This document shows positions 6,023 to 22,372 of a stretch of DNA of 64,000 nucleotides, in pieces. The notes below the pieces were generated by a model, which saw only the letters and a program-made list of their open reading frames with translations, did not search any database and had not been told where the DNA came from. The stretch is taken from contig JAXHLS010000002.1 of the NCBI GenBank assembly GCA_034522055.1, positions 1,922,001 through 1,986,000 of the forward strand, in the 5' to 3' direction. The stretch's first letter is position 1; each line of letters begins with the position of its first letter. This DNA comes from Gammaproteobacteria bacterium (GTDB lineage Bacteria; Pseudomonadota; Gammaproteobacteria; JAABTG01). The position numbers and the translations under genes were made by a program.

Positions 6023-6069
6023 ATTGGTGGCCAGGGACAGAATCGAACTGCCGACACGGGGATTTTCAG
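6023..6069. repeat. Left attachment site (attL), tRNA-Phe 3' fragment
   Basis: These 47 bp are identical to 22123-22169. They contain the 3' 45 nt of tRNA-Phe, from the anticodon loop to the CCA, and nothing upstream of it, so this is not a functional tRNA. From here to the SIR2 stop at 6361 there are about 290 bp of comparatively AT-rich DNA in which I see no convincing gene. Confidence 0.93.
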
Positions 6070-6360
6070 AGGCATAGGAATTCGTATGTGGTTGATTTGG
6101 TTGGAGCAGGCGACCTTCGGATCAGATAGCAAAAAGCGGATTGAAACAGTAGGTTGGCATAGGTTGGTGTAGATAGCGAAATTTCAGCAGTGATCCGGCT
6201 TTGTACCATGGATCCGAAAAAAATTTCATTGGCAGACGGCCAGGATCCAGCCTCCGAAGCGGGTCTCGCGCAATTCTCTTTGATCGTCCCGCTGGCATTC
6301 AATCGAGGAGGATCCTTAGCTTCAGATTCATTAGCGGCAAGGAATCTGTTCCCCCGCATG

Positions 6361-9300: not shown

Positions 9301-10140
9301 GTGCAGGTAAGCGTGGCGATTGTGCTCCCGGTAGAGGATGGGAGTGACGTTCTTGGCATGCCATTCGTTAGCCCGCTCCTCTTCCTTACCCCTGGAGTAG
9401 CTGCCAAACGAGAACATTTCAGGAGGTGACTCGCCAAGCAGACGGTCGGCGGCCAGTGCGTCCATCATGTAGCGCAGCACTGGGTCGTTGATGCTGTAAC
9501 CGACGAAACATACGGTGTAGTTGCGGAACAGCTCACTGACGAAGCGGGCCGCCCAGCGCTCCGTCAGATAGGCGAGGCCGAAATCGCCGCTGGATACGAC
9601 CAACCGGTCCAGGTCGCTCGCCGTCGGCGAGGCGCTGAGCAGGCCATGCAAATAGACCAGGCCGTCCCAGCGGTTCTTCGGCACTGGCAGCAGCGGGGCC
9701 TGAAAACCCTCGATGGTCAGCGCCTTCGCCGCAATCACTTCCTCGAAGAGGCGATCGAAGTTCGTGGTGATAAGCCGCGTTCTACCCTCGCGGCTCTTGC
9801 CAAGAATAAGCAATGCCTCGTGAGTTGCGGTAGCATTCCTGGCGCTGAGGTCGGGCGTCAGGATGCCCGTCAATGCCCTCCGCACGGTCTCGCGTCCGCC
9901 GACGATGTCCGCTTCCAGCAAGCCGACGGCGGTGTCGAATTGTCCGGCCCTGATCGCCGCTTTCTGCACTGCGGTCGGCGTGACCGCAAGGTTCGTGTAG
10001 AGCTTGTCGACCAGGCCTGAAAAGCTCGGCAGGCGAGCCGGGTAAGAGATACCTGCGCCGCAGAAGAACACCACACGGCCGTCCTCGTGCGCTTGCATAA
10101 GGCGTTCAGGTATTTCAGGACCGTTTCGAACGAACTGCAC
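6361..10140 (-). CDS. Large SIR2-domain defence-type protein (1,259 aa)
   Basis: The N-terminal ~250 residues form a SIR2-like NAD-binding domain: GAGIS at 28-32, TTNFD with Asn127, YLHG with His165, and GYSINDPV at 214-221. Asn and His at these spacings are the catalytic pair in defence-associated SIR2 NADases (ThsA, DSR-type proteins), which deplete NAD+ on phage infection. The remaining ~1,000 residues are alpha-helical and rich in Trp and Leu (HEDMVWWIERRLDEL), with no enzyme motif that I recognise; they could be the sensor part, and may include the DUF4020 region known from some SIR2 proteins. No signal or membrane segment is visible. The gene is the last of the minus-strand block, 65 bp after the metallopeptidase gene. 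NADase activity is inferred. Confidence 0.85.
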   Translation of the reverse strand: MQFVRNGPEIPERLMQAHEDGRVVFFCGAGISYPARLPSFSGLVDKLYTNLAVTPTAVQKAAIRAGQFDTAVGLLEADIVGGRETVRRALTGILTPDLSARNATATHEALLILGKSREGRTRLITTNFDRLFEEVIAAKALTIEGFQAPLLPVPKNRWDGLVYLHGLLSASPTASDLDRLVVSSGDFGLAYLTERWAARFVSELFRNYTVCFVGYSINDPVLRYMMDALAADRLLGESPPEMFSFGSYSRGKEEERANEWHAKNVTPILYREHNRHAYLHKTLCAWAETYRDGVRGKERIVVESAMARPLASTRQDDFVGRLLWALSDPGGLPARRFADLDPVPSLDWLEPLSEERYRHADLGRFGVPPKPAVDDKLAFSLTRRPSPYPLAPLMCVVDAGSRGSRWDEVMRQLARWLIRHLDDPALLLWLAKRGGQLHEDMVWWIERRLDELAKLECDGNTAELARIRANAPKAIPGPLMRTLWRLLLTGRVKSWSRDLDLYRWRDRFKRDGLTTTLRLELREMLTPRVSFREPFNWPADEGESHEPERIKDLVDWEIVLSTDHVHSSLRDLPKDERWTDALPDLLFDVSSLLRDALDLMRELGNADDRSDHSYVDQPSISEHPQNRDFHDWTALIDLTRDAWLTTVAQSPARAALVAESWCNTPYPLFRRLAFFAAAQGDVIPLRRALDWLLADDHWWLWSVETEREVMRLLVALATRLDEAMLLELERAVLAGPLREMFKDDIEREHWTRIVNREIWRRLAKLADTGAILSAAGSERLAQLSDQYPEWTLAADQRDEFPFWTGDGDEWRKFVTSPRRRRELVEWLRQPPSADHWQEDDWRQRCRDNFATTACALCALAKEGVWPTERWREALQAWSEEKHLKRSWRYMAPILVAAPNAVLQSLAHGVSWWLKAISKTFEDHEAHFFTLGRRILALDLQDGVDTDEPVMRAINHPVGHVTEALLRWWYRRSLEDNQGLPEELEPTFTVLCNSEIEKFRHGRVLLAAHVIALFRVDRDWATQRLLPLFDWQSSHVEARAAWEGFLWSPRLYRPLMEMLKPAFLDTARHYRNLGDHGRQYASLLTFAALDPGDTFTNSELAAATRSLPPDGLHDAAQALVRALEGAGNQRTDYWSNRVAPYLHAIWPKSRDNVSPAIAESLGRLCVAAQDAFPAALTLLRAWLQPPAHPDYLVHRLNEAGLCDKFPAQALDFLSLVIGDQTQWPPRDLATCLEAIRTSASELDTDQRYGWLVEYSRRHVQ

Positions 10141-10205
10141 TTAGGCAAGCCTCTTCCGAGACGTGCACGAGGCATCGAACTGCCGGGGTCGGGGCCGATA
10201 GTGCA

Positions 10206-10583
10206 TCACTTGCGCTCGACACTGGTTGGTCGGCGCCCGTTCTCCCCGGCGGTACTTCTCGGGGCCTCCCCGAGGCTTTCATGGCGGCGAAGCAGTGCCT
10301 CGCTGGCTTCCCAGTCTCCGACATGCGCGCGCATCAGGCTCTTCCACAACTTGCCATGGTTCGGCACGTTGAAATGCAGCAGCTCATGGACGATTATGTA
10401 ATCCCAGACCGTTGGCTCGAACTCGAGCAGCTCGGCGTTGAAACTCAGCACGCCATTCGACGAGCACGACGCCCACTTGGATCGCATGGGTCGAACGTAG
10501 ATGCTGGCGACGTTCACGCTGAGCTTGGCCGCCCATCGTCTGACGTGCGTCTTGAACTCGGCCTTGCGAGCGTCGCCGGACAT
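10206..10583 (-). CDS. YgjP/DUF45-type zinc metallopeptidase
   Basis: The product is 125 residues with the zinc-binding HELLHFNVPNHGKLW motif (HExxH followed by a downstream His), plus the family's SKWASCSSNGVLSFN segment. This matches the YgjP-like metallopeptidase family (DUF45), which is often found beside hsdR in type I restriction loci. The gene starts 4 bp after the hsdR stop, so the two are translationally linked. Family members usually run 170-240 residues; this one is short at the N-terminus but keeps the catalytic core. Its role in restriction systems is unknown; turnover of HsdR or of a regulator is a possibility only. Confidence 0.8.
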   Translation of the reverse strand: MSGDARKAEFKTHVRRWAAKLSVNVASIYVRPMRSKWASCSSNGVLSFNAELLEFEPTVWDYIIVHELLHFNVPNHGKLWKSLMRAHVGDWEASEALLRRHESLGEAPRSTAGENGRRPTSVERK

Positions 10584-10587
10584 CGAA

Positions 10588-13524
10588 TTACAGCCTCACG
10601 GCCTTGTCGAGTAGCGAAAACAGCCGGTCGACTATCGCCGCTACGCCCTCGACATCGTCGGATTCGGCCACCAGCGCGAAGGTGACCTTCTTCCGCAGCT
10701 CCCGGAGTGCAGCCTCGCTGGTCCGCCAGTTGGGGAATGCGGTGAAAGCCTCCTTGATCCGGCGACTTAAGTCCTCTGCATTGGGGAGCCCCTCGTCGAG
10801 CAGTGTTCGATATACGAAGTACGTCAGCCCGTCGAAGCCCCGCTCCGCCTGCTCTTTCTTTCGGGTTTCATTCTTGTCGACCTCCTGCAGTAGGTCGGCC
10901 AGGGCCTCTTCTGTCGTTGTCTGCCGTTCCTCGAAACTTTGCTGTACCGCCCGGGCACGCTCGGCCATGGCGATCAGGTACGGGTCGTCGCTGTGTTCCT
11001 CGGCGGTCTTCTCGATACTCTTCACGAGATTGATGATCTTCGTACCATCCCCCCCCTGGCCGGCCTTGATGAGCTCGATCGTCTCGGCATTGATCTCCAC
11101 CAAATCGGTCACGCCGCCGATGCCGTAGGTGCCGATTTGCTCGCTTACCAAGTTGTCGGTTTTACGCTGGAAATCCCTGTCCACGTAGACCGTCTTCGCG
11201 TAGGCCTTCCGAACCACGCTGAACATGGCCGCCAGCGTGCTGTATGTGTCGATGAACGGCCGTAGAAAGGCATCCGGCGAGATGATCTCGTAGAGCATCT
11301 CGATCTCCTTGAACTCCTTGAAGAACACCTTGCGCCGGTCGGGATCGCGGAAGTGTTCGATCAGGTTCTCGACGTCCTTGTCGTCGAAGTTCCGGTCGAT
11401 CAACGCAAGATAGGGCGGCGCCACGTCTTCCATCTTCGACTGGAATAGGACCTTCAGCAGCGCCAGGTCCTTGACGATGGCGTTGATCTCGTCGCTGTCG
11501 AACGCCAGCGCCCTTTCGAGTTTGTCGAATATGCCGACGAAATCGAGCACGAAGCCGTGGGGCTTCACCATCTCCTCGCGCTCGTTCTCGTAGGGGCGGT
11601 TGACTCGGGCGATGGCCTGCAGCAGCGTGTGGTCGCGCATTGGCTTGTCGAGGTACATGGCGTACAGCACGGGCGCGTCAAACCCGGTCAGTAGTTTCTC
11701 CGTCACAATCAGGATGTTGGGCTGCTGATCCAGCTTCCCGAAGCTCTTACGGATCTGGCGCTCCGTCTTCGGGTCGAGATGGAATTCCTTCAGCAGGGCA
11801 GAATCGTTGTTGTTGCCGGTGTAGACCACCGCGGAATACTCCGGCGGCAGTCCCAGCGCCGCAAATGCGGTATCGAGCGCATGCTTGTAGAGCGCGCAGG
11901 CCTCGCGGTCGACGCCAACCAGGAAGGCCTTGTAGCCGAGCGGCTCGACGTTCTCCGTGTAGTGACGGGCAACGAACTCGGCTACCTGTTGGATGCGCTC
12001 CCGGCCCTTGAGGAAATTCTTGAGGTTCACCGCCCGCTCGAGGATCTTGTTCAGCTCCTCGATGTCGGCCACGCCCTCGGCTTCGGCCAGGGAGAGGAAC
12101 TCGGCGTCCAGCGTCTCGTGTGGGACCAGGATTTCGTTGGGGGCAAGCTGGTAGTAGAGCGGCAGCGTGGTGCCGTCCTCGATGCTCTCCGCGATCGAGT
12201 ATTTGTGCAGATACCCGCGGTCGTCTTCACAGCCGAAGGTCTTGAAGGTGCCCTTGCCGTAGGCCGTCTTGTCCACCGGAGTGCCAGTGAACCCGATGTA
12301 GGTGGCTTTCGGCAGGCCCGCCATCAGGAAGTTGCCGAGGTCGCCGCCGGTGGTGCGGTGGGCCTCGTCGATCAGCACGTAGATGTTCGAGCGGGTATTC
12401 AGGTTGGCCGGCATGTCGCGGAACTTGTGGATTATCGTCACGATGATGCCGCGGTAGTCGTCCTTCAACAGCCTGGTCAAACGCTTGATGCTGCTGGCAT
12501 GCTCCAGGTTGCCGAGGCCCAGTGCGGCCAGGTTCTTGAGCATCTGGTCCTCGAGCTCGTTGCGGTCGATCATCAGCAGCACGGTCGGCTTGTCGGCCTG
12601 CGGTGCGCGGAACAGGCGTTCCGCTGCCTTGATCATGGTGAACGTCTTGCCGCTGCCCTGGGTATGCCAGACGAGGCCGCGGCTGCGTTCCTGGTCGAGC
12701 GCGCGGGCCACGGTCGCCTCCACTGCGGCGGTCTGGTGCTGGCGCAGGATGTACTTGTTCAGCTCCTCGTCTTTCTCGGCGAAGACGATGTAGTCCTTCA
12801 GGAAGGCGAGCACCTGCGGGATGGCGCAGAAGCTCGTTACCTTGGCCTCCAGCTTGCCGATCTCCTCGTGCTTCCAGTTGAAGATGTTCCGCCGCACGGT
12901 GTTCCAGCTCACCCCGTAGGAGAAGCCGATGGCGTCCGTGGCCGTGAAGAGCTGTTCCGGCACGAACAGCTCCGGGGTCTCGCGGTGGTAGCGGCGGATC
13001 TGGTCCACCCCCAGGGCAATCGCCTCGTCCTTGTTGGCGTTCTTGCACTCGATGACCAGTACAGGGATGCCGTTGATCAGAAAGACGACGTCCTCCCGCG
13101 TGTCGTAGTGGCCGTTGTGGTAGGCCCACTCTTCGGTGACCTCGAAGACATTGTGCGAGGGGGCCTCGTAGTCGATCAGGATCAGGTCCCGCTCGCGGTC
13201 CTCCTCGTGATCGAAGAACTTGCCCCGGTTGCGCAGGTGCTCGACGAAGTCACGGTTGCCATAGATGTCGGGGTGGAAGAGATGGAACCGCCCGAGCAAG
13301 GCTCCCGGACCATCAGCGTAGCGCGGGTTGAGCTCGCGCACCTTGGCATCGAGCAGATCGTCGAAGAACATTGAGCGGTCCCTGGCACGCTCGGCCGGCG
13401 GGTCGTCGGGATCGAAGCCACGGCGCCGCTCGGCCTCCTCGCGGGGCACGAAGGTCCAGCCGATCGCGTCGGCGTACTCGAGGATCCTCGCCTGGACGGT
13501 CTTGTGCTCTCCGGGTGTCGGCAT
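10588..13524 (-). CDS. hsdR: Type I restriction enzyme, R subunit
   Basis: The product is 978 residues and full length. The nuclease part has the PD-(D/E)xK pattern Asp145 ... VIECKNAN (Glu159, Lys161). The SF2 translocase has Walker A TQGSGKT (288-294), DEAH (386-389) and downstream helicase motifs such as FTGTPVDKT and the QAIARVNRPY arginine-finger region. HsdR with two HsdM and one HsdS cuts DNA far from an unmethylated site after ATP-driven translocation. It follows fic1 by 12 bp. It is not next to hsdM/hsdS: the Abi_C and Fic genes lie between. All motifs are intact, so loss of restriction would come from the broken HsdS. Confidence 0.96.
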   Translation of the reverse strand: MPTPGEHKTVQARILEYADAIGWTFVPREEAERRRGFDPDDPPAERARDRSMFFDDLLDAKVRELNPRYADGPGALLGRFHLFHPDIYGNRDFVEHLRNRGKFFDHEEDRERDLILIDYEAPSHNVFEVTEEWAYHNGHYDTREDVVFLINGIPVLVIECKNANKDEAIALGVDQIRRYHRETPELFVPEQLFTATDAIGFSYGVSWNTVRRNIFNWKHEEIGKLEAKVTSFCAIPQVLAFLKDYIVFAEKDEELNKYILRQHQTAAVEATVARALDQERSRGLVWHTQGSGKTFTMIKAAERLFRAPQADKPTVLLMIDRNELEDQMLKNLAALGLGNLEHASSIKRLTRLLKDDYRGIIVTIIHKFRDMPANLNTRSNIYVLIDEAHRTTGGDLGNFLMAGLPKATYIGFTGTPVDKTAYGKGTFKTFGCEDDRGYLHKYSIAESIEDGTTLPLYYQLAPNEILVPHETLDAEFLSLAEAEGVADIEELNKILERAVNLKNFLKGRERIQQVAEFVARHYTENVEPLGYKAFLVGVDREACALYKHALDTAFAALGLPPEYSAVVYTGNNNDSALLKEFHLDPKTERQIRKSFGKLDQQPNILIVTEKLLTGFDAPVLYAMYLDKPMRDHTLLQAIARVNRPYENEREEMVKPHGFVLDFVGIFDKLERALAFDSDEINAIVKDLALLKVLFQSKMEDVAPPYLALIDRNFDDKDVENLIEHFRDPDRRKVFFKEFKEIEMLYEIISPDAFLRPFIDTYSTLAAMFSVVRKAYAKTVYVDRDFQRKTDNLVSEQIGTYGIGGVTDLVEINAETIELIKAGQGGDGTKIINLVKSIEKTAEEHSDDPYLIAMAERARAVQQSFEERQTTTEEALADLLQEVDKNETRKKEQAERGFDGLTYFVYRTLLDEGLPNAEDLSRRIKEAFTAFPNWRTSEAALRELRKKVTFALVAESDDVEGVAAIVDRLFSLLDKAVRL

Positions 13525-13536
13525 CCTCGCTTCCCC

Positions 13537-14934
13537 TCAACGCCAGCCTTGCCGCCATGCTTGGTACTCGGCCGGGCGCAGGCGGTAGCGCGCGATGTTG
13601 CCTTCGTGGAGGCTCATTATCTCGGTCTCGACGACTTCGACAAATCGCGCCCGGTCCGCCGGCGGCACCTGTTCCGCCGCACGTTGGCGCGCCAGTGCAG
13701 TCGCCGCTTTCTTGTCCATTCCCGCACGCACCACCACGGCGATCAGCTCGGCAACCAGTGCCCGGTACCGCAGGCGGAACGGGTCCGGCTCGCCCAGAGA
13801 CTGGCTGACCGCGGAGTAGCGTGCGCTCGAGCGCTCGTAGGCCCAGACGAACACGTCGCGCAGCAGCTCGATGCGATTCAGCTCGTAGATGGCCAGCACG
13901 CCGTCGATGTAGGCGCGCTCCGGCACGTCGACGAAGGACAGGGGGCAGAGGTTGCCGCGGATCAGCGGGATATTCGCGGCGAGGCGGGAGACCCGCTTGT
14001 TGACGTCCTCGAAGCCCTGCAGGTAGGCGAGGTGCACGAGCGCGAAGAAGGCCTGCTCGAAGGGGTCCGTGATCGCGGCCGCAGTATCGAGAAATATCTC
14101 GAAGCATTCCTCGATGAGCTGCGGTACTTCCGGCGGATGGTAGACCGTGCCGTCGATCCCCACCGGGATGCGCCGCAGGCGGCCACCCGCCTGCGGGTCG
14201 GCGAGCAAGTTGTCTGCGAGCAAGGCGTGCAGATTCAGGATCGTGTAGCGGTTAAAACCGATCTCGTCGGCCTGGTCGACGAGCAGCTCGATGGCGGCTT
14301 TGTGGTTCAGGATCATCTGCGCTTCCAGCGCATCCTTGCCCTCGGCGGCCTCGCCCAGCTCCAGCAGGCGCTCGGTTTCGAGCAGCGAGTAGGTGTTGCC
14401 CTCCAGGCGGCTCGAGTTCCACGAGAGGTCGATCAGAAGGCGACTGTAGATTGTGCGGGCGTAGGTTCCCGCCGGGCGCTCGCCGTCGGGCGGGCGCCCC
14501 ATTTCGAGCAGGCGCTGACGCGTTTCCGCGGGCAGGTACCAAGTTTCGTTGGGCCGGTAGTCGTCCAGAAAGTCGCGCTGGTAGCCGACCGGCTTGCGTT
14601 CCTGGACGGGCGCCCGCACCGCTTGCTTGATCGCTTCCGCGTTAGGCGAGATCGGGACATAGACCTCTCCACGCCCCTCGACCGTCGCGCCACCCGCGAC
14701 CAGACTCCCTTTGCCGGTTATCGTCGCAGGTGAGCGATAGCGACGGCCCTTGCCTCGCCCGTCGGCGATCAGCCGCTTCTGTTCCACCAGCAGGGCCAGG
14801 CGTCGCTGCAGCATCCGCGGTGCCATGTCGTACGGCAGCCCCGCGCGGATGGTGCCGACCGGTACGCCCTCAGGGTGTACCGCCACGACCGCCAGGATGG
14901 CGTCGAGCTCTTGTTCGGGGACCCGCTTCGGCAT
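13537..14934 (-). CDS. Fic-family protein with N-terminal winged helix and a His-to-Gln Fic motif
   Basis: The product is 465 residues. Residues ~1-70 look like a winged helix (AGLPYDMAPRMLQRRLALLV). An inhibitory-helix motif, SSRLEGN, lies at 174-180, and the Fic core at ~220-330. The Fic loop reads YLQGFEDVNKRVSR: it has the F-x-D-x-N-K-R pattern of Doc-like proteins, but the position of the catalytic His is Gln306. Canonical Fic proteins need that His to attack AMP or UMP donors, so activity may be absent or altered. Proteins of this overall type occur near type I systems. The gene has its own upstream operator-like repeats and leads the fic-hsdR-peptidase-SIR2 half of the block. A regulatory role is inferred from the winged helix. 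Confidence 0.85.
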   Translation of the reverse strand: MPKRVPEQELDAILAVVAVHPEGVPVGTIRAGLPYDMAPRMLQRRLALLVEQKRLIADGRGKGRRYRSPATITGKGSLVAGGATVEGRGEVYVPISPNAEAIKQAVRAPVQERKPVGYQRDFLDDYRPNETWYLPAETRQRLLEMGRPPDGERPAGTYARTIYSRLLIDLSWNSSRLEGNTYSLLETERLLELGEAAEGKDALEAQMILNHKAAIELLVDQADEIGFNRYTILNLHALLADNLLADPQAGGRLRRIPVGIDGTVYHPPEVPQLIEECFEIFLDTAAAITDPFEQAFFALVHLAYLQGFEDVNKRVSRLAANIPLIRGNLCPLSFVDVPERAYIDGVLAIYELNRIELLRDVFVWAYERSSARYSAVSQSLGEPDPFRLRYRALVAELIAVVVRAGMDKKAATALARQRAAEQVPPADRARFVEVVETEIMSLHEGNIARYRLRPAEYQAWRQGWR

Positions 14935-15045
14935 GTGACGGATTATATGTCGCTAAAACGAATTATGCGACATTTAAAGCGCTTAATATGACGCATATCG
15001 TATTTTGTGTCGCATAAAGCGCTTTTGCCGTCGCAAACGTGCGTA
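14935..15045 (-). promoter_or_regulatory. Operator-like repeats upstream of the Fic/hsdR unit
   Basis: This 111-bp AT-rich gap contains the inverted repeat ATGTCGC (14947-14953) / GCGACAT (14967-14973). It also has two copies of a composite element, GCGACAT or GTCGCAT next to the palindrome AAAGCGCTT (14967-14984 and 15009-15025). The dense symmetry directly before the fic start at 14934 suggests a promoter with two binding sites. The binding protein is unknown; the winged-helix Fic encoded downstream is the obvious candidate. Confidence 0.6.
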
Positions 15046-15852
15046 TCATGGCGGCCCTTTGGTCGCCTCGTGCGTCTCGAACAGGAACACCGCCAGGGTC
15101 GAGGCCGCGCCCACGGCGAGCCGCGCGTGTCGCGCCGTCAGGCCGGACGCCGAGCCGTGCTGGCCGTGCCCGGTGCCATACAGGCCGCGCAGCTCGGCGA
15201 GACCCTGGCCGACGGTCGAGAGATTGCTCAACAGGCGCTTGATCACATCCGCGCCGCGGGCCGCGCTCGGAACGCCTTCAGGCACCAGGTTCAGCTCCTT
15301 GAGGGTCGCTTTGGTCAGCGTCGGGATGTCCGGCGCACCCGCAATCTCCTTGCCGCGCGCGGCCAGGATGGTCTTGCAGCAGGTCTCGATCAGCTCCTTC
15401 GCCGTGCCGATGGCGAGGCTCGGGTCCTTCTCCACGGAATCCTCCAGCCGGCGTATCTGCTCCGCGAGATGGCTCGCGTCGAGTACCCGTGCCTGCTGCT
15501 TGAGATCAGCGAGGCTCGGCCCGCCGGCCAGGAGACGAGTGGCAATTTCGCGGCAGCGGCCGGCGAGCTTCCGATCGTCCTCGTTGAATTCGCGGGACTT
15601 CTCCTCGGCAAAGTCGATCAGGGCACTCAGCAGCCGACCCACGAGATAGTCGGACTCGATCTCCCAGAACGCGCGCAGCTTCTTGGCTTTCGATGTGCCG
15701 TGGGTGAGGTACTTGTCCGAGTGGATGTCGATATCCCCCGCCTCTTCGCAGAACTCGCGGAAGGTACGGTCGGAGAAATTCAGGACGTAGCCCGAGCCCA
15801 TGCCCAGGAACTCCTCGAGCAGGCGCTTCTCACGCATACTCAGTGAGCTCAC
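15046..15852 (-). CDS. Abi_C-type abortive-infection protein
   Basis: The product is 268 residues. The C-terminal half has the pattern of the Abi_C domain: ELIETCCKTILAARG, then LLSNLSTVGQGLAELRGLYG, the GHGQHG turn, and ARLAVGAASTLAVFLFET. This domain ends several abortive-infection proteins and is frequent inside type I restriction operons. The N-terminal half is helical and of unknown role (FREFCEEAGDIDIHSDKYL). The GTG start at 15850-15852 overlaps the hsdS stop by four bases (GTGA), so the gene is translationally coupled to hsdS. The molecular activity of the family is not established. Confidence 0.75.
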   Translation of the reverse strand: MSSLSMREKRLLEEFLGMGSGYVLNFSDRTFREFCEEAGDIDIHSDKYLTHGTSKAKKLRAFWEIESDYLVGRLLSALIDFAEEKSREFNEDDRKLAGRCREIATRLLAGGPSLADLKQQARVLDASHLAEQIRRLEDSVEKDPSLAIGTAKELIETCCKTILAARGKEIAGAPDIPTLTKATLKELNLVPEGVPSAARGADVIKRLLSNLSTVGQGLAELRGLYGTGHGQHGSASGLTARHARLAVGAASTLAVFLFETHEATKGPP

Positions 15853-16575
15853 GCGCCTCGATCCTCAACTGCGAAATCGAGATCGTGCACGCGAATCGTC
15901 GCCGTCATAAGTTCATGCAGGAGCGTGCGGAAAAGGTCTAAAAGCTCAGTTTGTTTCCTAGTCGCTAGACCCTGTTTTGCGTCCAGCGATTCAAAGACAG
16001 CCACGATCTCCTCTTGCTCGCCGATGGGCGGAACGGGTATCGAAAGCGTCTTCAAGAATCCGCAAGTCAGAGCCCCTTTGGTACTTCCGCCGCCGTGGGC
16101 GATCGCTCGGAGGTAGTCGTATCGGGTTTGCATGAACCACAGCACGAAGTCAGGGACGACGATTGACGAATGGAATTGGGCATAGGCTAGGTGCTGATTG
16201 ATACACGTCTCGAACCGGGTGATTGCTGAATTACCCAACGTCTTGCCTTGGCCGGTGATGGCGACGAGTAGCTGTCCGGCGCAACTTTGGGTAGGTGGCA
16301 TTCCTTGACGGCTGGTGGTGTTACGAACTGGTCGGCTGCGGTAATGAACCGATCGTGAATCTTGGTGCTGTTGAGCCATGGGACGGTTCCGTCTTCCCAG
16401 TTTCAACGTCAAGGTACGCGACGTTCGAATAGTCGATTAGGCCCGAAGGCGTGAAGTTAGTGTTTCGGATTACCCCCGCTTCAATGAACGGTTCTTTCTT
16501 GCCTTTCCAGAGACCGTTGAGCGTCTCGAAGTACTCCGGGTCTGCGATAGGAACTGTTTCCACCTCCCAAGTCAT
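15849..16575 (-). pseudogene. hsdS: Type I restriction enzyme, S subunit, frameshifted twice
   Basis: HsdS gives the DNA specificity of the complex. The 5' part (MTWEVETVPIADPEYF, from 16575) starts in an ATGA overlap with hsdM. Homology-like reading passes through three frames. Frame one covers NVAYLDVETG; frame two covers WEDGTVPWLNSTKIHDRF and KECHLPKV; frame three covers LLVAITGQGKTLGNSAITRF to the C-terminus. The second shift, at about 16274-16283, is explained by one missing G (GCGCCGG for GCGCCGGG). The first lies near 16398-16404. Total coding length is only about 242 residues, roughly one target-recognition domain plus coiled coil, whereas normal HsdS has two (about 400). It is either a half-size HsdS that decayed or has been deleted as well. 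Confidence 0.8.
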
Positions 16576-18182
16576 ACGCCGATCTTCTCCAGAATATCCC
16601 GCAGCACCGCATCTGTTTCGCGTGCCTCCTCCTCAATGACGTCCAGCTCCTCGACGATCTCCGCAATCGACCGGTAGGTCTCGGCATCCGAGGTGTGGAT
16701 GTACCGGCTGGGGGAGATGTTGTAGTCGTTCTTCCGGATCTCGGCGAGCTCAACGACGCGGCTGAATTTCTCCTCTTCCGTCCAGTCTGAGAGTGCCTCG
16801 GTGACGCGTTCGATGCCCCCGGGCGGGATGAAATTCTTCGGGTCCCCCTTCTCGAACACTTGGCTGGCGTTCACCAGAAGCAGCTTGCCCTGCCGCTCCT
16901 TCGGCTTGGCCCTGTTGAGGAACAGCACGATGCCCGGCGCGCTGGTGTTGTAGAACAGGTTCTCGGGCAGGTAGAGCACGCTCTCGATGAGGTCGTGATC
17001 GACGAACCACTGGCGGACGGTCTTTTCCTTGTTGGTGCCGGTGTTGCCCGAGCCCCGCGAAGCGGCGCCCGTGTCCAGCACCACGGCGGCACGGCCGGCC
17101 CCGTTCAGGCTCGCGTGCATGTGCTGCACCCAGCCCCAGTCCGCGGAGGACTTGCCGGGGAAACCGGCGCCTGCCGGGAAGCGCCCTAGTTCATCAGCGT
17201 CGTAGTCGGCCTCGCTGAACCAGTTCTGGTTCCACATGGGATTGGCGACTACCCGGTCGAAGGTGCGCAGGCTGCCCTTGCTGTCGCGGAATTTCGGGTT
17301 CTTTAAGGTATCGCCGATCTCTATCTCGCCTTCGAAGTCGTGGATGATCAGGTTCATGTTGGCCATGGCCCAGGTGTCGGCGATGTACTCCTGGCCGTAG
17401 AGCCTGAGGGGCGTGTATTGCTTTGATTGCCCCCTCTCCCCAACCCTCCCCGACGGGGGCGAGGGGGAAGAAGCGGCCGCTTCCATGGCGATTTCACACT
17501 TGATCAGCAGGCCGGCCGAGCCGCAGCAGGGATCGTAGACCTCCATGCCCGGCTCGGGACTGATGACGCGGGACATGATGGTGCCGACTTCCGGCGGCGT
17601 GTAGAACTCGCCGGCGCTCTGTCCGCCACCCTCGGCGAACTTGCGGATCAGGTACTCGTAGCTCTTGCCGATGATGTCGGCCTCGACGTCGTCGAGCCCG
17701 AGGCGCTTGGTGCTGATGGCCTCGATCAGGTTCGAAAGGCGGTCGTCGTCGATATCGCGCTGGCCGTGAGTGGTGGCATTGAAATCGACACGGTCGATGA
17801 TGCCCTGCAGACGCGGGTTCTCTTTCGCAATCGCCCGCATGCGGCTGGTAATGCCTTCGCCGATCCTGTCGGCAAGCTTGCGGATCACGGACCAGACGGG
17901 CTGTTCGGGGTCGCCCGGCTCCAGCGGGAGGTAGAAGCGCACCAGCTTGTGGTCGGCCCTGGCGAGTTGGAAGGCCTTCTTGCGTGACCCCACCTCGGCG
18001 GCGATGCGATCGATCTCGTCGTCGAACACGTCGCACAGGCGTTTGGTGAAGATCAGCGGGAGGATGTAGTCCTTGTATTTGGGCGCGTCCTTGGCGCCGC
18101 GGATGGAGCAGGCGGCATCCCAGATCCAGGACTCGAGGGACTTTTCCTTTCCGTTGTTCGGTGACGTGTTCTTCTTGGCCAT
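16572..18182 (-). CDS. hsdM: Type I DNA methyltransferase, M subunit
   Basis: The product is 536 residues. It has an N-terminal helical HsdM domain, a GEFYTPPEV motif (191-199), SAM-binding motif I DPCCGSAG (217-224) and catalytic motif IV NPMWNQ (314-319, in place of the commoner NPPF). HsdM methylates adenine in the target when joined by HsdS. Between motif I and the LRLYGQEY segment, residues ~235-256 (AAASSPSPPSGRVGERGQSK) are encoded by a GC-rich palindrome (17430-17467) typical of intergenic repeats, apparently inserted in frame. The gene ends in an ATGA overlap with hsdS and begins 5 bp after fic2. Without a working HsdS it should lack specificity. Confidence 0.94.
   Translation of the reverse strand: MAKKNTSPNNGKEKSLESWIWDAACSIRGAKDAPKYKDYILPLIFTKRLCDVFDDEIDRIAAEVGSRKKAFQLARADHKLVRFYLPLEPGDPEQPVWSVIRKLADRIGEGITSRMRAIAKENPRLQGIIDRVDFNATTHGQRDIDDDRLSNLIEAISTKRLGLDDVEADIIGKSYEYLIRKFAEGGGQSAGEFYTPPEVGTIMSRVISPEPGMEVYDPCCGSAGLLIKCEIAMEAAASSPSPPSGRVGERGQSKQYTPLRLYGQEYIADTWAMANMNLIIHDFEGEIEIGDTLKNPKFRDSKGSLRTFDRVVANPMWNQNWFSEADYDADELGRFPAGAGFPGKSSADWGWVQHMHASLNGAGRAAVVLDTGAASRGSGNTGTNKEKTVRQWFVDHDLIESVLYLPENLFYNTSAPGIVLFLNRAKPKERQGKLLLVNASQVFEKGDPKNFIPPGGIERVTEALSDWTEEEKFSRVVELAEIRKNDYNISPSRYIHTSDAETYRSIAEIVEELDVIEEEARETDAVLRDILEKIGV
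17430..17467. repeat. Palindromic REP-like repeat inside hsdM
   Basis: The 38-bp sequence runs from CCCCCTCTCC to GGGCGAGGGGG and folds as a GC-rich stem. It resembles the CCCTCTCCC...GGGAGGGG palindromes common between genes in many proteobacteria. It is in frame within hsdM and encodes Pro/Ser/Gly residues not expected in this part of the enzyme. Confidence 0.6.
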
Positions 18183-18187
18183 GGCGT

Positions 18188-19339
18188 CTAGTCCAGCAAC
18201 TGCAGGTATTTGTCGTAGCGATAAAGACGGTCGCGCTTGCGCGCACCGACCTCGGCGAGGATGCCTGCCTTGATCAGCACGTCAATCGCCTTGCCGGCGG
18301 TCGGTTTGGTGATCGAAAGCAGCCGGGTCACGAGCGGCATGGTGATGACCGGGTGCTCCGGCAACAGCTCGAAGAGCTGGATGGCCGTCACGGTGGCACC
18401 CTGGGTCTCCAACAGCGCTCGACGGTCATCCCCCACCCGGCCGAAAAGGGCGCGCGCTCGCTGCGTGGCGTCGTCGGCAATCTCGGAGATGCCGTCCAGG
18501 AAGAATCGCAGCCAGCCGGCCCAGCCACCCTCCGTGCGGATCGCGGATAGCCAGCGGTAGTAGGCGGCCTGATTCTGCTTCAGGTACAGACTCAGGTACA
18601 GCAGCGGGCTCCTGAGCAGGCCCCAGTGGTCGAGCAACAGCGCGATCAGCATGCGCCCCAGCCTTCCGTTGCCGTCCAGGTACGGATGGATGGTCTCGAA
18701 CTGGACGTGGACGAGCCCGACCCGCAGTAGCGGCGCCAGGTCATCCTCGGCGTGGATGTAGCGCTCCAGGTCGCCCAGCAGGTCGGCGACCCGCTCCGGT
18801 GGCGGTGGCACGAATACGGCATTGCGCGGCCGACTGCCGCCGACCCAGTTCTGGGAACGGCGCAGCTCGCCAGGCTGCTTGTTGGCGCCGCGCACGCCCT
18901 GCATCAGGATGCGGTGGCAGTCGTTGAAGAGCCGGACGGAGATCGGCGCGCCCTTCGGCGAGTGAATCTGCTCGAAGGCGTAGTTGATGGCCGCGACGTA
19001 GTTGGTGACTTCCTCGATGTCCTCGATGCGGGAGTCGCCAGTGTGGTCGGTCTGCTCCCAGGCCAGTATGTCCACCAGCGTCGCCTGCGTGCCCTCGATT
19101 TCGGACGACAGCAGGGCCTCCTTGCGAACAAAGGCGTAGAGGAACCAGCCGAGGGAGGGGATCATCTCGCCGGCAAGGTCCAGCCGCGCGAGTGCCGCCT
19201 CGGCCTTGCGCAGGGGCTCGTCGAGGGTGGCCAGCTCCTTCGCCGCCAGCTTGGGCGGCAGCGGCTCGGGCACGAAGGCCTCGAAGGATTCGCCGGCGAC
19301 GGAAGCGGTGACGTATCGGCCTGTGGGCTGCGCAGTCAT
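18188..19339 (-). CDS. Fic-family adenylyltransferase-type protein with C-terminal winged helix
   Basis: The product is 383 residues. It has an N-terminal Fic_N-like part, the inhibitory motif SSEIEG (78-83), and a complete canonical Fic motif HPYLDGNGRLGR (218-229) with His218. The winged helix follows at about residues 320-383 (LVTRLLSITKPTAGKAIDVL). Fic enzymes of this class transfer AMP from ATP to a protein target, often themselves or gyrase/topoisomerase; the target here is unknown. The gene is first in the fic-hsdM-hsdS-abi unit, 5 bp before hsdM, and two palindromic sites lie just upstream of its start. The winged helix suggests it could bind those sites and link its AMP-transfer state to transcription; this is inference. 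Confidence 0.9.
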   Translation of the reverse strand: MTAQPTGRYVTASVAGESFEAFVPEPLPPKLAAKELATLDEPLRKAEAALARLDLAGEMIPSLGWFLYAFVRKEALLSSEIEGTQATLVDILAWEQTDHTGDSRIEDIEEVTNYVAAINYAFEQIHSPKGAPISVRLFNDCHRILMQGVRGANKQPGELRRSQNWVGGSRPRNAVFVPPPPERVADLLGDLERYIHAEDDLAPLLRVGLVHVQFETIHPYLDGNGRLGRMLIALLLDHWGLLRSPLLYLSLYLKQNQAAYYRWLSAIRTEGGWAGWLRFFLDGISEIADDATQRARALFGRVGDDRRALLETQGATVTAIQLFELLPEHPVITMPLVTRLLSITKPTAGKAIDVLIKAGILAEVGARKRDRLYRYDKYLQLLD

Positions 19340-19388
19340 GGTAAGTCAGTCTTTACCATGTTTGTCCAAAAGTAAAGACTGGTTTACC
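19340..19388 (-). promoter_or_regulatory. Two palindromic operator-like sites upstream of the Fic/hsdM unit
   Basis: Site one (19340-19357) is GGTAA-N8-TTACC; site two (19372-19387) is GTAAA-N6-TTTAC. Together they form a larger perfect inverted repeat, CAGTCTTTAC (19347-19356) and GTAAAGACTG (19372-19381), with a 15-bp spacer. Site one touches the fic2 start codon, so binding would block transcription or translation initiation. Confidence 0.65.
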
Positions 19389-19431
19389 ACGCTTGGCGCT
19401 GGGCAGTGTCGGCTTTACCGTCGGCAACATA

Positions 19432-19463
19432 CCCAGAGTGGGCGGCTTCATGCCCACTCTGGG
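19432..19463. other. 12-bp hairpin
   Basis: The arms CCCAGAGTGGGC (19432-19443) and GCCCACTCTGGG (19452-19463) are perfect complements with an 8-nt loop. No T-tract follows on either strand. Confidence 0.6.
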
Positions 19464-19830
19464 AATTCGTGCGGACCAGTGCGAGGCAGTCAGGTAAGTG
19501 TTTCTGACACTCCGCCAGCGCCGTGGCGCTGTCGGACCGCGCCTCGCCTTACGAGGCGGCGGTGCGTGTCGCGGGGGCACTACTCCCGCTTCAGTCTGGC
19601 CTGGTCTCAGGCCGCGCCGGGCGTTCCGGTGGGAACGGCGGTCGGCGCTTGCTGGCTCCTGCGAGCCGGTGGGTTGCTTGTCGATTCACCTCCTTGGGGT
19701 TGTTGCACACGGGTTTGCCACTTTGCCGCAGTGGCCGCGGATAAATCGGTTGCGTTGGAGTCATTCTGCGAACGCATCATTCGCGCGTCACTTGGAAAAT
19801 CGGCCGGGACGCCGCGCGGTTGTTGGGGTT

Positions 19831-19877
19831 GCCGCCCATGTCACTACCCCGCTGCGCTTGCTAGTGACATGGGCGGC
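19831..19877. other. 16-bp perfect inverted repeat
   Basis: The arms GCCGCCCATGTCACTA (19831-19846) and TAGTGACATGGGCGGC (19862-19877) are perfect complements with a 15-nt loop. It lies 78 bp past the end of the winged-helix gene, in position for a terminator, but has no T-run. A replication or mobilisation origin next to a replication-type gene is an alternative. Confidence 0.65.
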
Positions 19878-19955
19878 GTCGCGCGTTTTCGGCGGTCCGG
19901 TTCCGAGGTCGGCCGATTATTACAGTGTAATCGTGCGACATCGCGATCCCGACGA

Positions 19956-20633
19956 TTACAACAACGACGACACGACCCCCGCATATCGGGGGCTCATGTC
20001 GCCGTCCTGGCAGCGCGCGGCCAGCGTCTTGAGATACCCGAGTGGCGATCGCTTGACCGCACCGGCCGCCAGCGCGCCGGTCCACTCGTCAATGACGAGC
20101 TGGGCTTCGGCACTGTTGAGGTCGCCGACTAGCCGGGTGGCCGGCGCGTGCATCTCGGCCGGTAGCCAGCCGGGGAACCGGAGCGCGGACTGCTTCGCGG
20201 TCGCCGTCGCGTAGGTGTCTGTCGGTCTTGTTGTAGTAGTTGTTCTTTGGTTTCCATCGGTATTGGGTAATGCGCGCGTGTTTGCCTGACGCGGTGCAGC
20301 CAGAGCCGGCGCGTCCACATCCGGCGAAGCCGTATGCGGTATCTCGGAGACGATGTAGGTGCCGCCGCGCATGCGTCCGTGCGCATCGCGGTTGCGCTCG
20401 AAGTGCACGTAGCCGGCCTGGCGCAGTTCGCGCAGCAGGGCATAGATGCCGTCCCGCCCGAGATTGCCTCGTTTCTTGAGATCGTTGACCAGCACCTTCC
20501 AATCATCGGGGCGCGAGAGCAGGTAGGCGAGCAGACCGCGGGCGGCCCAGGAGAGGCGTGTGTCCTCTACGGCGGCCTGGTCGACGATGACGTACCGATG
20601 CCGGCGTGCGGCGCGGCGGATGGTCTGGGTCAT
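19956..20633 (-). CDS. Winged-helix, replication-initiator-like island protein
   Basis: The product is 225 residues. The N-terminal ~110 residues include RLSWAARGLLAYLLSRPDDW and LGRDGIYALLRELRQAGYV, a helix-turn-helix arrangement widely seen in plasmid and integrative-element proteins annotated as HTH or replication proteins. The middle is low-complexity (Thr-rich) and the C-terminal part (FPGWLPAEMHAPATRLV ... LGYLKTLAARCQDG) resembles the tail of the same proteins. The start ATG at 20633 overlaps the preceding stop in an ATGA junction. Its role in replicating or regulating the excised island is inferred from family and position. Confidence 0.65.
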   Translation of the reverse strand: MTQTIRRAARRHRYVIVDQAAVEDTRLSWAARGLLAYLLSRPDDWKVLVNDLKKRGNLGRDGIYALLRELRQAGYVHFERNRDAHGRMRGGTYIVSEIPHTASPDVDAPALAAPRQANTRALPNTDGNQRTTTTTRPTDTYATATAKQSALRFPGWLPAEMHAPATRLVGDLNSAEAQLVIDEWTGALAAGAVKRSPLGYLKTLAARCQDGDMSPRYAGVVSSLL

Positions 20634-20881
20634 TCGTCGTCCACAGCGCTGATGATGCGGGCGACCTCGATGGCCGGGTAGTACACGCGCCGGCCGATCC
20701 TGCGCCCGCAGGCCTTCAGCGCGCGGGTGCGGGCGTCGCTCGGCGTGCAGAGGCTGTAACGAAGGCCGCCGGCTGAACGGCCGAGCAGCTCGGCAAGCTG
20801 TGATTGCGTGAGTAGCGGGCCGAAGCGCTCGGTGAGCTGGCTTGCGAGTTCGCCCTGCGCGGGAATGGTCGTGGCTGGCAT
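20630..20881 (-). CDS. AlpA-like small DNA-binding regulator / excisionase-type protein
   Basis: The product is 83 residues with one helix-turn-helix (LLTQSQLAELLGRSAGGLRY) and a short wing with RIGRRVYYPAIEVARII. This form is common for regulators beside tyrosine integrases, where it may act as recombination directionality factor or activate integrase. The ATG at 20881 is chosen because an AGGAGA ribosome site precedes it; an upstream in-frame ATG at 20905 has none. The stop overlaps the next start (ATGA). Confidence 0.65.
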   Translation of the reverse strand: MPATTIPAQGELASQLTERFGPLLTQSQLAELLGRSAGGLRYSLCTPSDARTRALKACGRRIGRRVYYPAIEVARIISAVDDE

Positions 20882-20994
20882 GGTCTCTCCTTGTCTGCGG
20901 ATCACTGTGCAGACGAGAGAAGACCGGTTTCAGGCTTGCGAGGCGACAGATAACCCCATCCTGCCTCGTCGAGGTTTGGGCAACCGCAACGGGC

Positions 20995-22038
20995 CTAACG
21001 CACCCCGAGCTGATCCAGACGGTGCACCAGATCCTCCGCACGCAGGTGTGTATAGCGCCTGAGCATCTGCATCGACTTGTGTCCCGAGATTGCTGCAACC
21101 TCCTGATCGCCGAGCCCCGCTTCGACCAGGCGCGACACGGCCTCGTGCCTCAGGTCGTGGAAGCGCAGTCCTGGAATCCCAGTGCTTTGCAGGGTTCGAT
21201 GCCAGGCGACGCGGAACTCGTAAGGCCGCCGTACCTTGTCCCGACCGGGCTCGCCGAAGAACACGAGATCGGTATCGATGGGCCGCACCGGGTTCGCGAG
21301 CGCGTTGCGGAGCACGGCCGCCGCCGCGTACGAGAGCGGCACGGTGCGCGCGGTGCCGTTCTTGGTCTCGGTCAGCGTGACGGTGCGCTTATCGAGATTG
21401 ACCTGGTCGCGTCGGAGCGAGGCGATCTCGCCGGCGCGCATGCCGGTGTAGAGCGCGAGGCGCACGATCCAGCCGAGCATGGGGTTCGAGTGCTGGTCGC
21501 AGGCTTTGAGCAGCATCTGCTCCTCTTCGACGGCCAGGCGCCGGTTGCGGCCCTTGTGCGGCGCGGGCTTGCGGATGTTCGCGACGGGGTTGTAGACGAG
21601 GCCGATGCGCCACTCCTTGATCGCCACGGTGTAGAGGTGGGAGAGGAGGGCCAGCTCGATGCGCACGCTGCTTGCTGACATGCCCGCCTCCAGGCGCTTG
21701 TCGCGGTAGTTGGCGACGATGTCGGGCGTGACGGCGGCGAGGCTGTACTGGCCGAGCGCGCTTCTCAGCCTGGCGCACACACCTGCCTCGCGCCGTTGGG
21801 TCGAGGCACGCTTGGTGGGCGTGACTTCGGCGGCATAGCGACTGAGCGCCTGCTTCAGAAGCATGCGCTCGGACGCCGCGCGATCGATGTACACGCCGCG
21901 CACCATCTCGTCCTCGGTGCGCCGTGCCCAGTCCTCGGCGTCGCGCTTGGTGCGGAAGGTCTTGATGACGGTCGGCCACCCGCGTTTGCGGATCACCGCC
22001 TTCCAGGTCGCCGACGGCGTCTTCCTCAGCGTGGCCAT
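20995..22038 (-). CDS. Tyrosine-recombinase integrase of the island
   Basis: The product is 347 residues with the catalytic set of tyrosine recombinases: Arg201 (YTGMRAGEI), His294 and Arg297 (HDLRHE), His320 (SGHKSMQ) and Tyr329 (RRYTHL). An N-terminal arm-binding part and a SAM-like core (~residues 60-150) precede it. The ATG at 22038 is taken as the start, since the open frame upstream runs through the tRNA gene. It lies 85 bp from the attachment repeat at the 3' end of tRNA-Phe, the usual position for an integrase that uses that tRNA. It should catalyse integration and excision between the two 47-bp repeats. Confidence 0.94.
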   Translation of the reverse strand: MATLRKTPSATWKAVIRKRGWPTVIKTFRTKRDAEDWARRTEDEMVRGVYIDRAASERMLLKQALSRYAAEVTPTKRASTQRREAGVCARLRSALGQYSLAAVTPDIVANYRDKRLEAGMSASSVRIELALLSHLYTVAIKEWRIGLVYNPVANIRKPAPHKGRNRRLAVEEEQMLLKACDQHSNPMLGWIVRLALYTGMRAGEIASLRRDQVNLDKRTVTLTETKNGTARTVPLSYAAAAVLRNALANPVRPIDTDLVFFGEPGRDKVRRPYEFRVAWHRTLQSTGIPGLRFHDLRHEAVSRLVEAGLGDQEVAAISGHKSMQMLRRYTHLRAEDLVHRLDQLGVR

Positions 22039-22122
22039 GACATGCTCCGGATCGCAGGTGATCCGAAAATGTACCGCGCGACGCAGGGACTGGAAGGGGA
22101 AAGTCCGCAAGGTGATGATTTG

Positions 22123-22169
22123 ATTGGTGGCCAGGGACAGAATCGAACTGCCGACACGGGGATTTTCAG
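22123..22169. repeat. Right attachment site (attR) within tRNA-Phe
   Basis: These 47 bp are identical to 6023-6069. They cover the 3' 45 nt of the intact tRNA-Phe gene and two further bases. Confidence 0.93.
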
Positions 22170-22200
22170 TCCCCTGCTCTACCAACTGAGCTACCTGGCC
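22125..22200 (-). tRNA. tRNA-Phe (GAA)
   Basis: This 76-nt cloverleaf has acceptor GGCCAGG / CCTGGCC, a D-arm with AGCTCAGTTGGTAGAGC, and anticodon stem GGGGA / TCCCC around loop CTGAAAA (anticodon GAA). The T-arm is GGCAG-TTCGATT-CTGTC, followed by an encoded CCA. Its 3' half is the integration site of the island, and the gene stays intact. Confidence 0.97.
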
Positions 22201-22284
22201 GCGTAAGAAAGCGGGACGCCACAGGCCCGGGCTCGGGGGGCTTTGGCGGGTTCCCGGGGCCTGGGGGGCCGAACGGGAGGGCGA

Positions 22285-22313
22285 ATTAAACCGGTATTGG
22301 CGGGGTGAGTCAA
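22285..22313 (-). promoter_or_regulatory. Sigma-70 promoter of tRNA-Phe
   Basis: Reading the minus strand, TTGACT (-35) is separated by 17 bp from TTTAAT (-10). A GC-rich discriminator follows, and the tRNA begins about 80 nt downstream of the -10. The GC-rich discriminator is typical of stable-RNA promoters under stringent control. Confidence 0.75.
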
Positions 22314-22372
22314 GCAACCCCTTGATTCTTCGGGTTGCCCCCCGGGGGCGGTGGGTTTAGGGTCGCCGGACC

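Follow-up and report, generated by a model that had tools for sequence, protein, structure and literature searches.

The 64,000-nucleotide stretch of DNA analysed here (the window) carries an integrative defence island in which, in our judgement, two independent negative-feedback circuits probably operate, each built on a Fic protein joined to a winged helix. Fic1 is very probably an autorepressor, as judged from its orthologs and their upstream regions, and Fic2 is, within the same explanation, most likely a SoFic-family anti-phage AMPylator with an intact catalytic site that would repress its own promoter. What is new here is a family of Fic proteins with glutamine in place of the catalytic histidine (Gln-Fic) and with co-diverging operators, which in places is harnessed to the restriction gene hsdR.

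Island structure and gene order

The two fic genes lie in a 16.1-kb integrative genomic island at tRNA-Phe that carries defence genes (Table 1). The open reading frame of its integrase crosses the tRNA with its 5' end; the true start lies further in. Further genes form two tightly packed runs, fic2-hsdM-hsdS'-abi and fic1-hsdR-ygjP(-dsr1), with one Fic gene at the head of each. The gaps measure 5 bp between fic2 and hsdM, 12 bp between fic1 and hsdR and 4 bp between hsdR and ygjP, and dsr1, 65 bp from ygjP, could have a promoter of its own. The initial annotation had placed the winged helix at the N-terminus of Fic1 and at the C-terminus of Fic2, with coordinates, strands and domains that prove correct, and had suggested that each half of the block could be controlled by its own Fic protein. 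The gene order agrees with that suggestion, as one Fic gene and its operator head each run.

A functional type I restriction-modification (RM) system requires intact hsdM, hsdR and hsdS. The first two are intact in the window, and hsdS is split and half-length, with the Methylase_S match (Pfam) confined to its 3' part, compared with 420-468 aa for the full HsdS at two loci of Fic1 orthologs (L053, L061). The state of hsdS makes the RM system of the window, as read, probably inactive, which weakens the earlier proposal of RM control at this locus.

Table 1. Features of the island, with positions in the window
Feature	Position	Strand	Basis or remark
Integrative genomic island, 16.1 kb	6023..22169	.	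47-bp direct repeats at both ends, right one inside tRNA-Phe
Exact 47-bp repeat, left copy	6023..6069		
Exact 47-bp repeat, right copy	22123..22169		
tRNA-Phe	22125..22200		ARAGORN
Island tyrosine integrase ORF	20995..22317	-	Pfam Phage_integrase PF00589, 2.7e-31
Fic2 operator, CAGTCTTTAC-N15-GTAAAGACTG, 10-bp inverted repeat, 15-bp spacer	19347..19381	.	Pattern search, shuffles
fic2, SoFic-family Fic with C-terminal winged helix, 383 aa	18188..19339	-	Fic_N + Fic (Pfam), PADLOC
Fic2 catalytic motif HPYLDGNGRLGR, intact	18653..18688	-	Motif in translation, orthologs
hsdM	16572..18182	-	Pfam N6_Mtase 4.5e-85, HsdM_N
hsdS remnant, ~240 codons, one target-recognition domain, frame broken	15849..16575	-	Two overlapping frames
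Abi_C / AbiJ-like gene (abi)	15046..15852	-	Profile matches (Pfam among them)
Fic1 box 1, GCGACg on - strand, imperfect	15029..15034	-	Some orthologs also with a box near -100
Fic1 box 2, GCGACA, position -79	15008..15013	-	Ortholog alignment
Fic1 box 3, GCGTCA, imperfect, position -60	14989..14994	-	Ortholog alignment
Fic1 box 4, reverse orientation, TGTCGC on - strand, position -38	14967..14972	+	Ortholog alignment
Fic1 box 5, GCGACA, position -19, fused to -10 hexamer	14948..14953	-	Ortholog alignment
TATAAT -10 hexamer at -13 (spans 8-13 nt ahead of ATG)	14942..14947	-	Ortholog comparison
fic1, Gln-Fic protein with N-terminal winged helix, 465 aa	13537..14934	-	Pfam, orthologs, AlphaFold model
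Fic1 recognition helix, residues 39-51 (PRMLQRRLALLVE)	14782..14820	-	AlphaFold model
Fic1 inhibitory-helix motif SSRLEG, class II position	14398..14415	-	Ortholog alignment
Fic1 active-site motif QGFEDVNKRVSR, Gln306 in place of catalytic His	13984..14019	-	Alignment
hsdR	10588..13524	-	TIGR00348, 456 bits
YgjP-like metallopeptidase (ygjP)	10206..10583	-	Pfam 1.1e-26
dsr1, defence-associated sirtuin	6361..10140	-	NCBIfam Dsr1, 2011 bits

The Fic1 operator array and the winged helix

The operator of fic1 consists of five TGTCGC/GCGACA boxes at 14948-15034, spaced 19-22 bp apart. In a set of 20 sequences (the window and 19 orthologs of box class GCGAC with at least 66% identity), boxes 2 to 5 hold to about the positions listed in Table 1 within otherwise unrelated surroundings, and a -10-like hexamer occurs at -12/-13 in 19 of the 20. 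The transcript is predicted to be leaderless, starting about at the ATG. The fic1 promoter has a poor -35 and was for that reason missed by a sigma-70 scan. The 150 bp upstream of fic1 contain 13 exact 7-mer repeat pairs compared with a shuffle mean of 1.9, and none of 100 shuffles reaches 13. Over the ortholog set (n = 102) the upstream regions score 15.4 repeat pairs against 1.4 in shuffled sequence, 2.2 within genes and 4.0 further upstream. By exact repeats 16 of the 102 regions fail to attain significance at the 5% level, and several of the 16 have degenerate boxes by eye; exact pairs proved more sensitive than 7-mer counts allowing one mismatch. The array is no accident.

The GTCGC repeats pointed out upstream of fic1 by the initial annotation are part of the operator, whereas AAGCGCTT, which it had also named, was rejected, as its two copies are spacer between boxes and lack conservation in orthologs. 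The information content of columns in an ungapped stack did not separate boxes from spacer because the boxes slip by 1-2 bp. A search for a wider regulon found TGTCGC-N8-24-GCGACA nine times in the genome compared with five for the reversed control pattern, and among these genome matches only the one at the fic1 promoter is AT-rich by eye. Single boxes elsewhere in the window occur at chance frequency.

The AlphaFold model of Fic1 places the winged helix at residues 7-67 (mean pLDDT 82), with helices 7-18, 26-32 and 39-51 and strands 56-58 and 65-67; for Fic2 the DNA-binding domain is recognised by alignment to the structure 3eqx. Among 101 Fic1 orthologs, operator similarity follows winged-helix identity after Fic-domain identity is removed (partial Mantel r = 0.209, 0 of 999 permutations). 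The converse correlation, between operator and Fic domain given the helix, is 0.025, and three control regions gave 0.006-0.024 in the same partial Mantel test, which is not significant. GCGAC operators are set apart from GCGCC operators best by the alignment columns of five residues (39, 32, 41, 25 and 28), each of which lies in the winged helix, and residues 39, 41 and 44 of the recognition helix covary with box class. Orthologs with Y, H or F at residue 44 have TTGCG boxes in 13 of 13 cases, against 1 of 54 with other residues, an association backed by only two strongly supported independent changes. Fic1 of the window has R at residue 44. The arrays of two orthologous loci (L101 and L117) read TTGCGCAA.

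The DNA-binding helix of Fic1 thus looks as if it co-evolved with the conserved operator array ahead of its gene. Iterons also hold short repeated boxes and the gene is mobile, which could suggest that the Fic1 boxes serve a different host regulator or the mobile element itself (as iterons or recombination sites) rather than Fic1. We consider this very improbable, as the boxes track the winged helix of the protein encoded next to them with no residual signal for the rest of the protein, their spacing to the -10 and the ATG is fixed, and the recombination sites of the island are located elsewhere. The autorepressor reading of Fic1, which computation supports through box geometry and co-divergence, has the N-terminal winged helix binding the regularly spaced boxes over the predicted promoter, where it would limit transcription of fic1 and of the downstream hsdR, ygjP and probably dsr1. 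We infer repression rather than activation, as well as co-transcription of the run.

The Gln-Fic domain and its link to restriction genes

Fic1 has a Fic fold (Pfam PF02661, E = 1.8e-8), and its top Foldseek matches are FICD and C. elegans Fic-1 (E about 1e-6). The catalytic motif HxFx[D/E]GN[G/K]R with its general-base His is absent, as Gln306 aligns with the His of FICD/Fic-1 in a profile alignment and the same replacement is found in the window and in 102 of 102 orthologs. Residues Q306, N312, K313, R314 and R317 are invariant among 45 sequences of the family, indicating strong purifying selection on the motif. The class II inhibitory motif ([ST]xxxE[GN] ahead of the Fic core) is also present, as SSRLEGNT in 100 of the 102 orthologs and SCRLEGNT in the other 2. 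We know of no characterised Fic reaction in which the general base is other than His. The loss of His together with the apparent co-evolution of helix and operator makes the Fic1 family look like a repressor, not an AMPylating enzyme. With the residues of the nucleotide site and inhibitory helix kept, the Fic domain would most likely serve to sense a bound ligand and to oligomerise.

Strong purifying selection on the motif would also be expected if the Gln-Fic domain were an enzyme of different chemistry (e.g., a Doc-like kinase, NKR being part of the Doc motif as well), with the winged helix merely keeping the dose low, and it has been argued that Gln variants of Fic could retain some catalysis (PMC4454073). 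We regard this possibility as rather unlikely in view of the role of His as general base in the characterised reactions, where H194A in EcSofic (PMC12249575) and H192A in CccR (PMC9755527) are dead mutants.

Whether the regulator serves restriction is a separate question. An hsdR homologue occurs in about 8 of the 80 Fic1 loci with flanks, and is full and directly downstream in about 3; most of the 80 have no conserved neighbour and are surrounded by ordinary chromosomal genes. RM genes are thereby ruled out as the conserved partner of Fic1, most orthologs being free-standing, and the control of restriction put forward earlier is a local use at best. Fic1 is found in about 11% of the sampled genomes of the class (41 of 369), at loci titled Verrucomicrobia, Chlamydiae, Acidobacteria, Nitrospirae and Desulfo- groups, and on plasmids. 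A search within the same order covered only five genomes and yielded no Fic1 ortholog, and in phages a single distant Fic match was found. Fic1 also persists next to decayed RM pieces (L040, L044, L045, L046, L079). The wide spread, this persistence and the lack of conserved neighbours all favour a self-sufficient system of one gene, whether solitary regulator, toxin or defence protein, which limits its own expression and stands only incidentally before hsdR in this island, a reading to which we assign somewhat less than an even chance. Against it, an intact hsdR begins at most about 25 bp from fic1 in the window and at three further loci (L053, L058, L061), so that read-through is nearly unavoidable there, and hsdR stubs in related loci suggest an old link.

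To our knowledge, Fic proteins have been investigated almost solely as enzymes and toxins. A Gln-Fic family spread over many phyla, with a helix co-diverging with its own operator, would represent a Fic domain turned transcriptional sensor, and a readable protein-DNA recognition code would follow, relating residues 39, 41 and 44 to box sequence. We tentatively speculate, without counting it the likelier case, that the His-to-Gln family has evolved into ligand-sensing transcription factors whose operator code diversifies fast and that in some mobile defence islands it has been recruited as a controller timing type I restriction. If the hsdR-linked members do time restriction, this would help to explain why certain mobile islands with type I RM genes do not kill a new host.

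Fic2 and comparison with known systems

Fic2 resembles SoFic over its full length (PADLOC 363 bits, residues 18-382), and its alignment to the SoFic structures 3eqx, 3zcn and 9tcl covers residues 17-382, with the C-terminal domain of DNA-binding type among them. Its score of 165 against the NCBIfam SoFic equivalog, where the cut-off is 550, places it in the same family as SoFic but in another equivalog. The class II motif reads SSEIEG, and sampled orthologs are alike. The operator pattern upstream of fic2 has its sole match in the window at this site and none in 100 shuffles, and when the 100 bp upstream of fic2 are shuffled, one shuffle in 100 yields an inverted repeat as long. The GGTAA/TTACC pairs described earlier overlap it. 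A 69% identical ortholog (L120) keeps the 15-bp spacer with arms TTCTTTAC/GTAAAGAA, and significant inverted repeats lie upstream in 16 of 30 Fic2 orthologs, which we count as an operator of its own. Each Fic gene thus has, as the initial annotation held, its own and different operator (a 10-bp inverted repeat versus a five-box array), and the test that it had set, conservation upstream of orthologous genes, is passed very strongly by Fic1 and moderately by Fic2.

The published precedent is CccR of Yersinia pseudotuberculosis, a Fic protein with a C-terminal HTH for which footprinting and repression of its own promoter have been reported (PMC9755527), so that Fic autorepression is not a wholly new mode of control. 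CccR acts on its own promoter through inverted repeats near -35/-10, and Fic1 and Fic2 would likewise act on theirs. Fic2 shares with CccR the Fic-then-HTH order and a 10-bp inverted repeat, through which it would repress its promoter likewise, with hsdM, the hsdS remnant and abi carried on the fic2 transcript. Fic1 differs in its N-terminal winged helix and in an array of five short boxes where CccR has inverted repeats, and has Gln where CccR, catalytically active and secreted, has an intact His.

The initial annotation had seen in AMPylation state a possible switch for restriction gene expression. Both proteins do combine a Fic domain with one for DNA binding, the HPYLDGNGRLGR motif of Fic2 is intact and accompanied by its inhibitory motif, and (de)AMPylation by CbFic2 of Coxiella burnetii is stimulated by DNA binding (PMC10628234). 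We nevertheless find such a switch improbable. It is unsupported for Fic1, whose orthologs all lack the catalytic His; the intact site of Fic2 is what marks a SoFic anti-phage AMPylator; the isolated C-terminal DNA-binding fragment of CccR (residues 201-380), which lacks the Fic domain, has about the same KD for the promoter as the whole protein (PMC9755527); and the direction in CbFic2 is from DNA to enzyme, not from enzyme to promoter. CbFic2 is like Fic1 and Fic2 in combining Fic and HTH, with DNA binding tied to the state of the Fic domain, and differs in its C-terminal HTH, intact active site and action on histone H3; the passages of PMC10628234 consulted here describe no operator.

SoFic itself (3eqx, 3zcn; EcSofic, PMC12249575) matches Fic2 in full-length alignment and in intact catalytic and inhibitory motifs. 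Fic2 differs from it in heading a run with hsdM and in having a conserved operator; EcSofic has an AS1 antitoxin downstream (PMC12249575). Fic1, in turn, can be likened by motif to Doc clade D2 of Khater and Mohanty (Qx[FY]x[DE][GV]NKR, usually single-domain; PMC4454073), as its QGFEDVNKR fits that pattern with the same His-to-Gln change. It is not a single-domain Doc, having about 465 aa, a winged helix, a class II motif and FICD-like best structures.

RptR, which represses type I RM islands (PMC12255303), resembles Fic1 in leading a type I RM defence unit; it represses its own promoter through several short repeats that overlap the -10, and some RptR loci also lack hsdS (PMC12255303). Fic1 falls outside this group of small helical proteins with TAGCTA repeats: RptR is a small all-helical TAGCTA binder strongly associated with RM, whereas Fic1 is unrelated, has GCGACA boxes and is mostly not RM-linked.

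Controller (C) proteins are small HTH autoregulators of type II RM systems. Fic1 shares with them the place of a DNA-binding autoregulator directly ahead of a restriction gene, and differs in being a large winged-helix Fic protein ahead of a type I hsdR. Its promoter would put restriction under feedback limitation apart from the promoter of modification, an arrangement that would resemble a C protein in its action upon arrival of the island in a new host. If that is true, Fic1 would be a Fic-based counterpart of the type II C proteins.

Gene order in the tRNA-Phe island

The whole defence block lies in a genomic island of 16.1 kb that has inserted into tRNA-Phe, enclosed between 47-bp exact direct repeats, and a tyrosine integrase adjoins the tRNA at the island edge. 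Reading leftward on the minus strand, the genes are an HTH-domain ORF, fic2, hsdM, an hsdS remnant, an Abi_C gene, fic1, hsdR, a YgjP-like peptidase gene and dsr1. A gap of 111 bp separates the Abi_C gene from fic1, and within the fic2 and fic1 runs neighbouring genes lie -4 to +12 bp apart, the 65 bp ahead of dsr1 being the one exception. Given such tight gaps, the simplest reading is two transcription units, one headed by fic2 and one by fic1. The initial annotation was correct in this, and its observation of two winged-helix Fic proteins, each with its own operator, around RM genes is confirmed.

The hsdS remnant is frame-broken, split and half-length, with a single target-recognition domain, so that the type I system as read would be without a specificity subunit and the RM system in the island is probably not working. 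Three hsdS loci occur elsewhere in the same genome (5.1 Mb), which contains ten Fic-domain matches.

Features of the island and its edge
Feature	Position	Remark
Island	6023-22169
Direct repeat	6023-6069	exact copy of the tRNA part, at the far end
Direct repeat	22123-22169	within tRNA-Phe
RES-domain protein	4771-5853	Pfam 4.2e-36; immediately outside island; possibly member of a RES-Xre toxin-antitoxin pair
dsr1	6361-10140	full-length Dsr1, defence-associated sirtuin, NCBIfam 2011 bits; final gene of fic1-hsdR run
hsdS remnant	15849-16575
Fic2 operator	19347-19381	CAGTCTTTAC-N15-GTAAAGACTG; no second copy in window

Fic1 and its box array

In the AlphaFold model of Fic1, built from 45 aligned relatives, residues 7-67 form a winged helix and are joined to a Fic domain; FICD and C. 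elegans Fic-1 are the top structural matches. Gln306 stands in place of the catalytic His, which makes AMPylation by Fic1 unlikely. Glutamine occupies this position in all orthologs from the whole-protein search and in 102 of 102 orthologs overall; the peptide patterns of the large scan did not cover position 306. The inhibitory motif SSRLEGN and N312, K313, R314 and R317 show little or no variation, and the variant Qx[FY]x[DE][GV]NKR has been noted computationally in a clade of Doc proteins (PMC4454073).

Ahead of fic1 the boxes are, in order toward the gene, GCGACg, GCGACA, GCGTCA, TGTCGC (reversed) and GCGACA, spaced 19-22 bp apart. The last is directly joined to TATAAT at -13, which should place the transcript start at or near the ATG. 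Another 19 orthologs of the same box class have their boxes at about -79, -60, -38 and -19, some loci lacking some of them, and a -10-like hexamer is present at -12/-13 in 19 of these 20 sequences. Exact repeat pairs in the 150 bp upstream of fic1 average 15.4 over 102 loci; the corresponding averages are 1.4 after dinucleotide shuffling, 2.2 within the gene body and 4.0 for the adjoining 300 bp farther upstream. Of the 102 regions, 84% reach the level of 5 in 100 shuffles or better.

Orthologs differ in box sequence, with GCGAC, GCGCC and TTGCGCAA among the versions. Once Fic-domain identity is removed, similarity between operators still tracks winged-helix identity over 101 orthologs (partial r 0.209, 0 of 999 permutations); Fic-domain identity contributes nothing past the winged helix (0.025), and three control regions taken from these loci gave no winged-helix relation (0.006-0.024). 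The columns most informative between GCGAC and GCGCC are residues 39, 32, 41, 25 and 28, all within the winged helix. Fic1 is accordingly predicted to read its own boxes. Residue 44, which belongs to the recognition helix, is Y, H or F with 13 of 14 TTGCG operators and with 0 of 53 others. Since the tree holds few independent changes (5 in all, 2 well supported), a residue-44 recognition code is suggestive rather than proven.

Probable autorepression and the link to restriction

The boxes overlie the -10 and the upstream region, and CccR of Yersinia pseudotuberculosis, the Fic-HTH case found with a characterised promoter, acts in this way, which makes autorepression the economical reading for Fic1. 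A genome search revealed no apparent further sites like the array. Because hsdR begins 12 bp past fic1 in the window, it would be subject to the same control there. Among 80 Fic1 relatives with flanks, 8 have an hsdR homologue of any kind, intact and adjacent in about 3, and other neighbours are ordinary; self-control of fic1 is thus the probable conserved function, and restriction control would be a local use of it. In some relatives fic1 is intact beside mere stubs of hsdR, hsdM or abi; those at five loci (L040, L044, L045, L046 and L079) are decayed remains of the same RM arrangement.

Fic2 and comparison with known systems

Fic2 belongs to the SoFic family (PADLOC, 363 bits), aligns with SoFic crystal structures over its full length, the C-terminal domain of DNA-binding type included, and has an intact catalytic motif, HPYLDGNGRLGR, and the inhibitory motif SSEIEG. 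SoFic acts against phage as a single protein, and its AMPylation is toxic (PMC12249575). The closest Fic2 ortholog (69%, locus L120) retains TTCTTTAC-N15-GTAAAGAA; among 30 diverse orthologs, 16 carry an upstream inverted repeat matched by at most 5 of 100 shuffles. CccR shares the domain order of Fic2 and represses itself via inverted repeats of 10 bp, whose spacer is 26 bp (PMC9755527) compared with 15 bp for Fic2. Together with family and operator retention, this precedent makes it probable that Fic2 is an ordinary SoFic that represses itself.

Fic1 and SoFic are both present in 14 of 369 genomes searched, compared with 7 expected (Fisher p 0.004, uncorrected for relatedness). At one locus from another genome of the same class (L165, 8769-11568) the two genes are divergent, 346 bp apart, each with its own operator type, and at a second (L166) they are 2.7 kb apart. 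We regard these as hints of a partnership, not evidence.

The proposal that each half of the block could be controlled by its own Fic protein is backed, as a prediction, by anatomy and conservation; the proposed switch by AMPylation state is not supported for Fic1, with its Gln for the catalytic His, and is unproven for Fic2. Fic-HTH autorepression is already known from CccR, and type I RM islands already have a known repressor in RptR (PMC12255303). The open-licence literature searched yielded no description of a Gln-Fic winged-helix family with co-diverging operator arrays, which, as far as that literature shows, is new here.
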